From a virus, in IMG/VR virus record IMGVR_UViG_3300035188_001352, positions 54,938-118,937 of that record: 64,000 nt of DNA. One strand, written 5' to 3'. Positions 15,167-50,366 of this stretch are shown here, one piece after another (within the stretch, counting starts at the first letter, position 1; every line of letters starts with the position of its first letter). The translations under genes and the position numbers were made by a program. A model generated the notes under the pieces. It did no database searches, was not told where the DNA came from, and saw only the letters and a program-made list of their open reading frames with translations.

Positions 15167-15805
15167 TTACTCATAACCCGTTTTTTCTTTATAAGCATTA
15201 TCAATCCTTTCTTGAATTTCATGCCATTTGATTTTTGATTGTTGAGCTTCTTGTTCCTGTTCTTCCTTACGACGCCGAGCTTTCATTGTATTCAGAACAA
15301 TGAACACCGCATCATCGTCGCCTTGAACTAGCACCTTACGTAAGTATTCATATAGGCGATAATACCATTTGCTTTTAGGACCATAACGATAACATAAAGA
15401 GAAAACTAAGTTTGCTGGTTCTGACATTGGTTGAACCCCAACAATATCTGAAGCAATTAGCTTGCTAATACCCATTCCTCGAACTAATGCAACCATTTCT
15501 GCTGATATACTAGATGAAAATCTAATGATATCCCTATGTCCATCGAGATTAGATTTTTGACGATACACTGCATCTCGTTCATCATACAGTTTGGCTAGCA
15601 TATCCTCATACTTAGGATGCAACCATTTTGGAGTAAATTTGATGCCATATACTTCAACGAGTGAAGCACCTGGAACTTTATAAACTTGGGTCTTTATACA
15701 ATTAAGCCAAGTGTCTTTGTTGATATACCAACCAGCATTGATAAACTCTCGATGAAGTTCTTTGCCATTGGCATCATATGATATTGCGTATGAAGGTAAG
15801 CTCAT
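15167..15805 (-). CDS. Protein with a gp23-like (major capsid) motif
   Basis: 212 aa; not a capsid protein by length. Residues ~111-130 read IASDIVGVQPMSEPANLVFS. The capsid protein encoded at 47095 has IATELVGIQPMSGPVSLAYS at the same kind of position, about half identical. In T4 this part of gp23 is the Gol region that activates the host Lit protease. The rest has a basic, helical C-terminus (MKARRRKEEQEQEA). I infer mimicry of the capsid N-arm; a decoy for capsid-sensing defence is one idea, and a relic of a capsid gene is another. Confidence 0.72.
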   Translation of the reverse strand: MSLPSYAISYDANGKELHREFINAGWYINKDTWLNCIKTQVYKVPGASLVEVYGIKFTPKWLHPKYEDMLAKLYDERDAVYRQKSNLDGHRDIIRFSSSISAEMVALVRGMGISKLIASDIVGVQPMSEPANLVFSLCYRYGPKSKWYYRLYEYLRKVLVQGDDDAVFIVLNTMKARRRKEEQEQEAQQSKIKWHEIQERIDNAYKEKTGYE

Positions 15806-16023
15806 TGTTCTTGCGTCCAGTATAATCCACAGTCAGGGCATTTATGAACGGTCCAATAACAATCTTGGGTCGGGTCATAATTGCCAGTATTTGCTTTATG
15901 AGAAATAGTTTGATTAGGATGAGTGCAAGTATGTTGAAGTTCTTCTAATGCCTTATCCCATTTTTTGATATTCTTTTGAATGCAAGTATGCTCTTTCTTT
16001 ACTTCTTCAGGAGACAGTGTCAT
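15802..16023 (-). CDS. Small zinc-ribbon-like protein (73 aa)
   Basis: A helical start, then HTCTHP and a late CPDCGLYW pair that could bind zinc. Overlaps the next gene by 4 nt. No family recognised. Confidence 0.68.
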   Translation of the reverse strand: MTLSPEEVKKEHTCIQKNIKKWDKALEELQHTCTHPNQTISHKANTGNYDPTQDCYWTVHKCPDCGLYWTQEQ

Positions 16024-45160: not shown

Positions 45161-45495
45161 AAAGACCATTTGAAGTTCGCATCAAATCCCTTGGCTTGGC
45201 AAGCAAATATTATCAAATCGAATACACTGAATACTGGTTTTTTGGTTTATTCAAGACTTGGGTTACAATTGAACAATATCATTACCTTAAAGGTGATGTA
45301 TCATATGCTGGACTTTGTTGGACTCGATGGTTAGGAACCTATCAAGAAGCTATTGTGTTTGCAAAGACTTTGACTTCATATGAAAAAGTTGAAGAGTATA
45401 ACCAAAGACAATTAGCAATCGAAGAAGAAAGTGAAAAACGTTATGCAGAGTATTTGAAGAAAGTACGACCGGTAAAAGTAAAGCAGATTTTATGA
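45157..45495 (+). CDS. Hypothetical protein (112 aa)
   Basis: MKRPFEVRIKSLGLASKYYQ, an aromatic beta-rich domain (YWFFGLFKTWVTIEQYHYLK) and a charged helical end. Overlaps both neighbours by 4 nt. Confidence 0.7.
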   Translation: MKRPFEVRIKSLGLASKYYQIEYTEYWFFGLFKTWVTIEQYHYLKGDVSYAGLCWTRWLGTYQEAIVFAKTLTSYEKVEEYNQRQLAIEEESEKRYAEYLKKVRPVKVKQIL

Positions 45496-47039
45496 TTGAA
45501 TGTCCAATATGTAACCGAAAGCTATCTAAAATTGATAAGCAACATCTAAAAGCTCATGGTTTTTCTAAAGAAGAATACTTTGAACAGTTTGGAAATGATG
45601 CTCCATTTGGATATTCACCAGAGCTAAAAGCAAAAAAGTCTGGTGACAATCATCCCCTAAAAGGTAAAGGTCATTCAGAAGAAACTAAAACTAAAGCTAA
45701 ACTTGTTGAAACTACAAAAAAACTTTGGCAAGAAGGTAGGGTTTCTGATAAACAAAAGAATGGTATTGGACAACGATCTAAAGAAGCTGCAGAAAATGGA
45801 GAGCATTTCAATACTGGTAGAACTCATGAACGTTCAGATGAATATCGTGAAAAACTGAGTATTGCGCTAAATGAATATTATCATAACAATCCAAAACCTC
45901 CACTTTCTGATGAAAGAATGGAGTTTCAAATACCTCACCTAGAAAAAATTGCTAAGCGAAGGAAAGAAGAAACCGCTAAAAAACTAGAAACTAATCTTCA
46001 AATTGAATGGGGTGAAGTTTTAGAAAATAGTGAACATTTCATATCAGGCAATTTTAGATTTAGTATCAAATGCAGTACATGTAATAACGTTTCGAATGTT
46101 GCATTAGTTACTTTGAAAAAGCATCAATTTGCTAATACTTTATGTCATACTTGCTTCCCTCCTCTAAAAGGAGAAAGTAAAGCTGAAGTAGAATTGGCTG
46201 ACTTTGTGTCTCAATATGTTGAAATTGTTAGACATAATAAAAGTATTCTTCCGAATAACTTAGAACTTGACATTTATATTCCAAGCAAAAACATTGCTAT
46301 CGAATATCATGGCTTATATTGGCATTCAAGTAAAGCTGGTTATGATAGGTATAAGCATCGGAAAAAATATGAATTATGTAAAGAACGTGGAATTAGATTA
46401 GTTCAAATTTTTGAAGATGAATGGTTGTCAAAAAAAGATTTAGTAAAAAATAAAATCATCAACATTATTGGTTGTAATGTTTCAACGAAACTTTTTGCAC
46501 GTAAATTACAAGCTAAAATTATTTCATCAAATGAAGCTACGTTATTTCTAAATCAATATCATATTCAAGGTTCAGCAAAATCTAAAGTGCAAATTGGATT
46601 ATTCACTGGTATTGATTTAGTAGCAGTAATGACATTTTGCAGACCTCGAATAATGATGAACCAAATTGATGATGGTAATACGTGGGAGTTATTACGTTAT
46701 GCAACTCATAGTGATTATCAGATTATTGGTGGTGCAGGGAAATTATTATCATGTTTTATAAAAAATAATCCAACAAAGAAAATTATTTCTTGGGCAGATT
46801 TGCGATGGACTGATTATAATAAAAATGTATATCAAACCTTGGGCTTTTCATTAGTAGGTGAAACTAAGATTGGCGTATTCTTTACTAACTTTACTGAAAG
46901 AAAACATCGATGGGGATTTAGAAGACCTGCTCATTTAGGACATGATATTATCACTAAAGATTATTGGGACTCACTAGGATGGTATTCTATTTCGGATGCA
47001 GGACAACTAAAATATCAATTAGAACTGTCAGATGGGTAA
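45492..47039 (+). CDS. Large homing endonuclease (Hef/EDxHD-like)
   Basis: 515 aa. An N-terminal zinc-finger-like CPICNRKL ... HLKAHGFSKEEYFEQFG (as in MucR-like DNA-binding parts), DNA-contact repeats with ERSDEYREKLSIALN, a CSTCNN/CHTC pair (residues ~195-225), then the nuclease core LELDIYIPSKNIAIEYHGLY, WHSSKAG and GIRLVQIFEDEW. A long C-terminal domain of unknown type follows (RPRIMM and ADLRWTDYNKNV). It sits beside the capsid gene, which fits a freestanding homing gene that protects a neighbouring target site. Confidence 0.82.
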   Translation: MIECPICNRKLSKIDKQHLKAHGFSKEEYFEQFGNDAPFGYSPELKAKKSGDNHPLKGKGHSEETKTKAKLVETTKKLWQEGRVSDKQKNGIGQRSKEAAENGEHFNTGRTHERSDEYREKLSIALNEYYHNNPKPPLSDERMEFQIPHLEKIAKRRKEETAKKLETNLQIEWGEVLENSEHFISGNFRFSIKCSTCNNVSNVALVTLKKHQFANTLCHTCFPPLKGESKAEVELADFVSQYVEIVRHNKSILPNNLELDIYIPSKNIAIEYHGLYWHSSKAGYDRYKHRKKYELCKERGIRLVQIFEDEWLSKKDLVKNKIINIIGCNVSTKLFARKLQAKIISSNEATLFLNQYHIQGSAKSKVQIGLFTGIDLVAVMTFCRPRIMMNQIDDGNTWELLRYATHSDYQIIGGAGKLLSCFIKNNPTKKIISWADLRWTDYNKNVYQTLGFSLVGETKIGVFFTNFTERKHRWGFRRPAHLGHDIITKDYWDSLGWYSISDAGQLKYQLELSDG

Positions 47040-47094: not shown

Positions 47095-48387
47095 TTAGAT
47101 GAATGAAAGATTTGCAACATTCACACGACCATAGTAATCGGCACTATTGCCCAACGAAGTAGCAGTATCGGTAAATGTAGCTTTTCCATATCTTGTCATC
47201 AAGCTTACTTGTGGGTTGTAAGTTGCAGGGTCAAACAATACGTTTGAGCTCATAAGTGGAACGTATGGGCAGTAGAAATAACCGGTATCCATTTCGCCGT
47301 TTCCACCTTTGTAACCAACCAAGATTGGCTCAGAACCAGTGTCATGATAGATGTAAGTGTAAACTTTGATAGAACCGTTTAAAGTACCAATCAATTTGGT
47401 GTTGTTAGGACCTTCGAATGAACCGCTTACTGCTGGAGCAAATACTGATTTTGCAGCAGATTGTAATACTGAAGCAACGATTGGAGATACAACAATCCAG
47501 TTAGCTGCATTACGACGAGTTTTGCGAGCAATCTCGTTTGCAACTTTATTGATTAAAGTACCAAGAACTGCATGACGGTCACCAACATAGTTAGGAACAC
47601 CAGTGAAAGTACCATTCATGTCGAAAGTTTCAACAGTACCAGCAAGAGCAATCAAGTCATTGATGATTTCGTTGTCGATTTCAGAAACGATTTCAGCAGA
47701 AAGAGCTGCAGTGATTTCAGCTTCAAGGTCTAAACCATGTTGTGCTGAAAGGTCTTGCATCGCTTCAACTGTCCATTTAGCTTGTAATTTACGTGAGCCA
47801 GCAGTAACAGTTTGTTTCAATACTTCTAATTGCAATTGACGTCCGCCGTACGCTTCGAAGTCAGCTGTAAGAGCTGCAGTACCAAGAGCCATACCACCAG
47901 CATTGATTGCACCAGAATACCAACGTTTAGTTTTGCTGTTGTTACCAAATACTTCAGTAGCACCTAAATAAGTACCAGTTACTGGGTCAACTAAACCAGC
48001 ACCGATGATGTCTTCAGGACCAGCACCTGGTGTTAAGTTCACAGCAGAAATAGTTCCATCTGGATTAGTAACATAACTAACAGTTGGAACATCAGTATTT
48101 TGAGAGAAAAGGAAACGTAATGAGTACGCTAAAGATACTGGACCTGACATTGGTTGGATACCAACAAGTTCAGTAGCGATAGTGCCAGGGATAATACGAC
48201 GAATCATTGGGATAATGATTTTTTGGAAATTACCAATTGCGCCTGCAGCGTTAACACCAGCAGCAGCAGTTTCCATCAACTGTTGTTTAGTGTTTTCCAT
48301 AATACGGCCCATGTAGGCTTTTTTATGAGCAGGTAATTCAGTTAGTAAAGCTTCTTTGGTTTGTGACCAATTTTCAAAAAGTTCCAT
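47095..48387 (-). CDS. gp23: Major capsid protein
   Basis: 430 aa, shorter than T4 gp23 (521 aa). N-terminal part: MELFENWSQTKEALLTELPA; a likely gp21 cut at QQLME|TAAAGVN; then the gp23 N-arm IIIPMIRRIIPGTIATELVG followed by IQPMSGP; later NWIVVSPIVASVLQSAAKSV and GYFYCPYVPLMSSNV, typical of the T4 capsid fold. It forms the hexamers of the head and is cleaved during maturation. Downstream of the scaffold gene in the head cluster. Confidence 0.93.
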   Translation of the reverse strand: MELFENWSQTKEALLTELPAHKKAYMGRIMENTKQQLMETAAAGVNAAGAIGNFQKIIIPMIRRIIPGTIATELVGIQPMSGPVSLAYSLRFLFSQNTDVPTVSYVTNPDGTISAVNLTPGAGPEDIIGAGLVDPVTGTYLGATEVFGNNSKTKRWYSGAINAGGMALGTAALTADFEAYGGRQLQLEVLKQTVTAGSRKLQAKWTVEAMQDLSAQHGLDLEAEITAALSAEIVSEIDNEIINDLIALAGTVETFDMNGTFTGVPNYVGDRHAVLGTLINKVANEIARKTRRNAANWIVVSPIVASVLQSAAKSVFAPAVSGSFEGPNNTKLIGTLNGSIKVYTYIYHDTGSEPILVGYKGGNGEMDTGYFYCPYVPLMSSNVLFDPATYNPQVSLMTRYGKATFTDTATSLGNSADYYGRVNVANLSFI

Positions 48388-49634: not shown

Positions 49635-50366
49635 TTACGTTTTTGAATATGATGAAATGACTTTCCATCCTTTACTTTTACCCCTAGTTACAGGAAGAGT
49701 GTTTTGAACTTGAGCTTTATATCTAAAAATTGAATATGCTAAATCAAGTTCTTGACAAAAGAGCGTTATGTCTCCGGTCTCAATCACTTCTCCGATTGGA
49801 TTTTCTAATATCCAATTTTTTGCATTATGATTATTTGCTCCTTTCATTTTTATTTTCATAAATTCAGAATGTGTTCTACATCTTTCAGAGTTTTCTTTAT
49901 TTTCTTTAGACATTCTTTCTGAATTTTTTCTATGATGTTCTGTATTAAATTTATTTTTACCAAGCAGTTTATTACTAATTCGCTGTAGATACTCAAAATC
50001 TTCTTTTGTCCTTCCCGATTTGGTTTGTGCCATTCTATCAGTCATTTCTTTTCGTTTTTCGTCAGAAATACATTGAGCTACACCTAACCCTCCTTGTCCG
50101 CCAATAGCAATATTATAAGTATCTTCTCGCATAATCATTTCGGCATTTACAATTTTTGTCTCTAACTCGTTCATTTCTTCTTCTGAGGAACAAAAATGTA
50201 ATATTTCTCTAACAAAATTATTTCTGCCATATTTGGCAATAGCGGTTTTTAGAAGTTTTCCACTACCTAAATAATTATCGTTAAGATTGTTTGTTTTATG
50301 TTTTCCTATATAAAATTTATTATTCACTATACATATAGTTCTATAAATTAGATAAAACGAATACAT
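49635..50366 (-). CDS. GIY-YIG homing endonuclease (Seg-like)
   Basis: 243 aa. The GIY-YIG core is in residues ~4-95: FYLIYRTICIV, FYIGKH, then GSGKLLKTAIAKYGRNNFVR with a Glu later. NUMOD-like DNA-binding repeats follow (SDEKRKEMTDRMAQTKSGRT and HRKNSERMSKENKE). It sits inside the head gene cluster, a usual homing site in T4-like genomes. Confidence 0.88.
   Translation of the reverse strand: MYSFYLIYRTICIVNNKFYIGKHKTNNLNDNYLGSGKLLKTAIAKYGRNNFVREILHFCSSEEEMNELETKIVNAEMIMREDTYNIAIGGQGGLGVAQCISDEKRKEMTDRMAQTKSGRTKEDFEYLQRISNKLLGKNKFNTEHHRKNSERMSKENKENSERCRTHSEFMKIKMKGANNHNAKNWILENPIGEVIETGDITLFCQELDLAYSIFRYKAQVQNTLPVTRGKSKGWKVISSYSKT

Follow-up and report, generated by a model that had tools for sequence, protein, structure and literature searches.

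A non-capsid protein family of T4-like phages that carries a segment matching the Gol region of the major capsid protein gp23

Why would a phage encode, among its tRNA genes, a small protein that contains a piece of its major capsid protein, gp23, and is this piece a remnant or a working part? Gol is the capsid peptide through which the Lit protease senses T4, and a first-pass annotation of one open reading frame had proposed that a segment of it resembles gp23 in the region of that peptide and might act as a decoy for capsid-sensing defences. The frame lies in a stretch of 64 kb (hereafter the window), which forms the final part of a 118,937-base virus record. The features concerned are the following:

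15167–15805, minus strand: gene for a protein of 212 aa, with an ATG start, a divergent phrog_12830 protein composed of N-domain, linker, Gol segment and C-terminal extension
15626–15805, minus strand: N-domain, residues 1–60 (MSLPS..FINxGW..VYG), predicted to be beta-beta-alpha-beta-beta, without sequence or fold match to gp23
15497–15625, minus strand: helical linker, residues 61–103
15380–15496, minus strand: gp23 Gol-like segment, residues 104–142 (core ISKLIASDIVGVQPM, then SEPANLVFSLCYRYG)
15170–15379, minus strand: helical C-terminal extension, residues 143–212, absent from the short family members
15802–16023, minus strand: upstream gene, 73 aa, phrog_4837, function unknown
47095–48387, minus strand: the phage's own major capsid protein gp23, 430 aa (Pfam Gp23, E 3.6e-96)
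about 48148–48222, minus strand: Gol-equivalent stretch of the phage's own gp23
113–30030, minus strand: tRNA-rich stretch with 19 tRNA genes (ARAGORN), inside which the 212-aa gene lies

Within 113–30030, small open reading frames are interspersed with the 19 tRNA genes, every one of them on the minus strand. In the sequence ATGA, the stop codon of the 73-aa gene and the start of the 212-aa gene overlap, and coupling of these genes is therefore probable. Homing endonuclease-like genes flank the region of the capsid gene, at 45492–47039 (plus strand) and 49635–50366 (minus strand).

The gp23-like segment and its carrier

Residues 117–136 of the 212-aa protein read IASDIVGVQPMSEPANLVFS, and their counterpart in the phage's own gp23 reads IATELVGIQPMSGPVSLAYS. 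The Smith–Waterman score between the two proteins is 70, which none of 2000 shuffles reached (mean 31.5, sd 4.3, maximum 53); the Pfam Gp23 profile matches residues 103–162 (32.6 bits; cut-off 24.4), and phrog_138 matches residues 100–147 with an E value of 4.1e-7. The segment aligns to about residues 97–131 of T4 gp23, Gol peptide included; we take this peptide to be residues 93–122 of T4 gp23 (PAVMGMVRRAIPNLIAFDICGVQPMNSPTG). The likeness of the segment to gp23 is far beyond chance, and these comparisons (Smith–Waterman, Pfam Gp23, phrog_138 and the T4 alignment) bear out the earlier proposal of a gp23-like segment overlapping Gol.

The Pfam Gp23 match spans just positions 7–61 of the 376 of the profile. 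The possibility that the 212-aa protein is itself a major capsid protein with the gp23/HK97 fold was rejected on this partial match and on the absence of a PDB fold match for AF2 models that are partly confident. The earlier placing of the segment in a non-capsid protein is likewise supported. In the AF2 model of the related protein of phage Merlin, a beta-beta-alpha-beta-beta N-domain is predicted with confidence and precedes a long helix, whereas confidence is low for the C-terminal tail; the Gol part is of low confidence in both AF2 models, and neither has a match in a PDB fold search at E ≤ 0.001. The rest of the capsid fold is lost, and no capsid similarity is detectable in the N-domain. 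The first-pass annotation had named a lack of fold similarity to gp23 outside the motif, together with no effect on capsid-sensing defences, as what would refute a mimic; the former is what the models gave against the PDB, but the same is expected of a mimicking peptide borne by a domain of foreign type.

A family with and without the Gol core

The first-pass annotation missed a whole-family match: residues 1–136 match positions 1–127 of the 128 of phrog_12830 (E 1.2e-10), an uncharacterised family labelled “major head protein” (e.g., Merlin CPT_Merlin284 and Aeh1p187). Searches by tblastn with two members placed the family in T4-like phages of Aeromonas, Citrobacter, Cronobacter, and Vibrio; the search with the protein of phage Ursula gave 29 records, 25 of them at ≥80% coverage. 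From these 29 records, 14 named-phage representatives were taken, 13 with the Gol core and one (S13) without; the comparison of Gol-bearing members likewise comprised 14 proteins, that of the window among them. The counts exclude IMG/VR copies of named phages (L168–L173, L176), near-duplicate GenBank/RefSeq records, and phages NM4.3, CF1, AsFcp_1, AsFcp_2, phiWae14, and LPCS28.

Common to all 14 are an N-domain of about 60 residues (MSxPS..FINCGW..YG, with variations), a linker, which is predicted to be helical in the members modelled, and a C-terminal gp23-like core. An alignment of eight members (A2) has 17 invariant columns; in the homologue scan with this alignment, most of the matches listed cover the gp23-like part only. 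The window protein has the same N-domain, linker, and Gol core as phrog_12830; it differs in being about 30% identical, in its additional 70-aa C-terminal extension, and in the gp23 of its phage, which is nearest to the gp23 of XacN1, a jumbo phage (55%). The member from Aeromonas phage Ahp1 (L181:119–898) is the second extended one, with 259 aa and a long extension past the Gol core. In Aeromonas phage Ah1 (L210, L202), the gp23 match is split, with about 100 bases between the open frame that holds residues 5–45 and the one that holds 66–521. RefSeq attaches the “major head protein” label to small non-capsid proteins in L083, L084, L085, L177, L182, and L183; the label is misleading and is likely an annotation error arising from the short gp23 match.

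The N-domain also occurs without the Gol core in Cronobacter phage S13, in KVP40-like and other Vibrio phages, and in records L174 and L175 (six proteins read). A Pfam scan of four N-domain-only proteins at E 0.1 gave no match except a sub-threshold one in S13. Families phrog_13244 and phrog_5175 (KVP40.0220 and its relatives) share the N-domain of phrog_12830 but, unlike it, have no Gol segment and are 80–96 aa long in the proteins read. A tree of the N-domain, which is poorly resolved and in which the window protein (window_GOL) forms a long branch, needs four changes to account for the presence of Gol.

Conservation of the core inside and outside the family

The family core corresponds to about residues 101–117 of T4 gp23, the heart of the Gol peptide; Merlin has MARRAIPELLAKDILSVQPMN where T4 has MVRRAIPNLIAFDICGVQPMN, and departs from the gp23 sequence soon after QPM. 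In T4 numbering, A108, V114, Q115, and P116 are invariant in the 14 small proteins, and position 110 is D or E in every one; P104, L106, I111, and M117 are each kept in 12, I107 in 11, G113 in 10, and R101 in 9, while N105 is kept in one. Most members thus have in common with the T4 peptide P104, L106-I107-A108, D/E110-I111, and G113-V114-Q115-P116-M117. What sets them apart from T4 Gol is that the peptide sits on a non-capsid protein, that its Gol activity is putative, and that F109 is always replaced (0 of 14, against 16 of 20 gp23s). Since A108, V114, Q115, and P116 are kept and F109 never is, packing in the capsid is not what maintains the core. In 16 small proteins (the 14 plus two from Jiaodavirus, described below), the stretch 103–114 has a greater amphipathicity and a lower hydrophobicity than in 20 gp23s (Mann–Whitney p 2e-4 and 3e-5, respectively, for rows that are not independent). 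From these sequence comparisons, we infer that one face, which is packed in the capsid, may have become exposed to solvent here and that another face may have been retained for a partner.

The Gol core is under purifying selection in the relatives, independently of the capsid: eight pairs of relatives were compared, and in the seven for which dN/dS over the core could be computed it is 0–0.26, with small counts per pair. After the core, selection is relaxed in the Aeromonas phages, with values near 1 in three pairs (1.44, 1.10, and 0.96); the values are 0.59 for PX29–Aeh1, and 0–0.11 in two Citrobacter pairs. These results stem from the relatives, the IMG/VR copies of the window lineage (L002 and L003) being identical in DNA. 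As to origin, the window core scores 0.33 against its own gp23 and a mean of 0.47 against other gp23s (over 24 ungapped positions; a local alignment needs one gap), and it is probably not derived from its own gp23 because it is closer to those of others. For 10 of the 14 small proteins, none of the gp23s compared is a better match than that of the same phage, but the margin is small, the comparison covers 24 positions, and clade-mates are identical there; this does not hold for D479, Ci1, Ahp1, or the window.

These data bear on what the first-pass annotation offered as the simple alternative, namely that the segment is a decayed capsid duplicate without function. The similarity to gp23 only would suit such a remnant. 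However, the unrelated N-domain is conserved, the architecture spans several genera, and the core recurs in relatives under purifying selection, on which grounds decay was rejected for the family; the window core is, moreover, less like its own gp23 than like other gp23s, and this explanation is very improbable. Because related phages have the same arrangement, the segment is better regarded as a working part than as a broken capsid gene.

The core may also exist almost by itself. That of Ci1 matches phrog_21284 (E 1.7e-6), with tblastn E values of 0.02–0.1 for the Klebsiella records listed, and two proteins of Klebsiella Jiaodavirus phages consist of little beyond the Gol core (IPRMGIPDDIAKQLASVQPMPDN...):

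L225:1965–2135: Jiaodavirus protein of 57 aa
L226:1965–2120: Jiaodavirus protein of 52 aa

On a match that is short and weak, these microproteins are likely homologous to the Gol core. For this pair, dN/dS over the core is about 0.32. Their genes lie near ones annotated as glutaredoxin or thioredoxin, ribonucleotide reductase, pin (an inhibitor of host Lon), and an antitoxin. One of the proteins is labelled “hydrolase”, a label that looks wrong, and in the copy in L227 the frame is broken after 23 residues. The arrangements in which the Gol core occurs number at least two and probably three.

A second family, phrog_2086/phrog_1823 (Gp61.1 in RB49, JSE, and others), is unrelated and carries at its C-terminus a gp23 stretch of about residues 42–103:

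L218:744–1229: gp61.1-type gene
L219:778–1248: gp61.1-type gene
L220, minus strand: gp61.1-type gene

Like the phrog_12830 family, the gp61.1-type proteins are small accessory carriers of a gp23 segment; they differ from it both in the stretch carried and in the N-terminal part. Since this unrelated family carries the neighbouring stretch, pieces of this region of gp23 have been reused repeatedly. No gp61.1-type gp23 mimic was found in the window by blastp at E ≤ 0.5.

Gene neighbourhoods and possible roles of the core

Among the Gol-bearing genes, 11 of 14 lie in or beside tRNA arrays as identified by ARAGORN (window, D479, phiAS5, Aeh1, avDM12, AsFcp_4, Ah1, ZPAH1, Ci1, Ahp1, and PX29), as against one of the six N-domain-only genes (S13), a difference for which Fisher's test gives p 0.018 with relatedness and unequal flanks ignored. 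The location of the window gene itself means little because the array spans nearly half of the window. In the Moonviruses Moon, Merlin, and Ursula, the gene is flanked by arn and asiA, with no tRNAs nearby; arn encodes an inhibitor of McrBC, and this neighbourhood fits a counter-defence role. The tRNA arrays also house many unrelated phage accessory genes. As for the sensor, the Lit family was found in 282 of 5426 E. coli genomes, in 13 plasmid records, and in one of 274 gammaproteobacterial genomes, that one being the seed.

According to PMC3014915, the Gol function is defined by a 29-residue region of gp23, the most conserved part of that protein, in which 13 residues of a 20-residue core are the most important; Gol binds domains II/III of EF-Tu, inhibits its GTPase, and lets Lit cleave it. 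Capsid triggers exist beyond Lit, as the work on CapRel-SJ46 shows (PMC9712102). In both systems, a capsid segment is the trigger (PMC9712102 and PMC3014915); they are, however, sensors of the host, whereas the small proteins are phage-borne carriers of the trigger segment.

The best reading, which we hold tentatively at a probability of roughly 0.38 and which rivals nearly match, is that of a Gol mimic acting in trans to pre-empt capsid-triggered translation arrest. The accessory proteins present the gp23 Gol core (about 101–117 in T4) as a peptide at their C-terminus, attached to a small domain that is unrelated; the small protein, produced apart from the capsid, would occupy EF-Tu, an effector that senses Gol (Lit or another capsid-triggered system like it), or both, and capsid synthesis could then proceed without EF-Tu cleavage or translation arrest. 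We infer the binding to EF-Tu or the effector, the timing ahead of the capsid, and the blocking rather than triggering. This reading is supported because the piece of gp23 that was kept includes part of T4 Gol, because Gol binds EF-Tu and inhibits its GTPase (PMC3014915), because the core is under purifying selection and keeps A108, V114, Q115, and P116 but never F109, because the core apparently stands alone in Jiaodavirus near pin and an annotated antitoxin, and because the Moonvirus gene lies between arn and asiA. Against it count the rarity of Lit-family genes, the possibility that a faithful mimic could trigger Lit instead of blocking it, the many unrelated accessory genes that tRNA arrays hold, and the low AF2 confidence of the Gol part.

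The rarity of Lit keeps two other explanations close, control of EF-Tu and control of capsid assembly. The core might be a docking module with no role in defence, which recruits the N-domain to EF-Tu or inhibits this factor and so adjusts translation during infection. This would explain a spread past the range of Lit, and it accords with the binding of Gol to EF-Tu domains II/III and the inhibition of its GTPase (PMC3014915) and with the tRNA-array association of the Gol-bearing genes; that association, however, draws on a small number of independent lineages and does not extend to Moonvirus or Jiaodavirus, and the N-domain is without known fold or function. We consider docking rather unlikely. 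About as unlikely is a capsid-assembly factor, in which the peptide would dock in trans on gp23, its chaperone, or the prohead to time, inhibit, or escort assembly. In favour of this, no part of gp23 is more conserved than the segment (PMC3014915), the gp61.1-type family carries the neighbouring stretch, and the Aeromonas and window members retain traces of the next strand (FSL..YG); but F109, G97, and the PTGxVFALR stretch, which gp23s conserve, are lost or eroded, the genes are distant from the head cluster, by arn/asiA or in tRNA arrays, and the window member resembles other gp23s more than its own.

No published report of a Gol-bearing non-capsid phage protein was found in the open-licence literature. 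The phrog_12830 family is already catalogued; its architecture and its link to Gol appear to be new, and the annotation of its small proteins as major head proteins is a database error that is flagged here. A broader and more doubtful idea is that the Gol core is a portable module (found in gp23, attached to the FINCGW N-domain, and, it appears, free as a microprotein) that neutralises host systems reading the most conserved capsid stretch or seizes EF-Tu directly. A selected non-capsid carrier of Gol in many phages is a reagent for asking whether the binding of Gol to EF-Tu serves phages beyond Lit, and the small proteins also bear on whether phages shield a hard-to-mutate trigger with decoys. 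If the broader idea of a portable module is true, phages would have in it an answer to a defence trigger from which gp23 can hardly escape by mutation.
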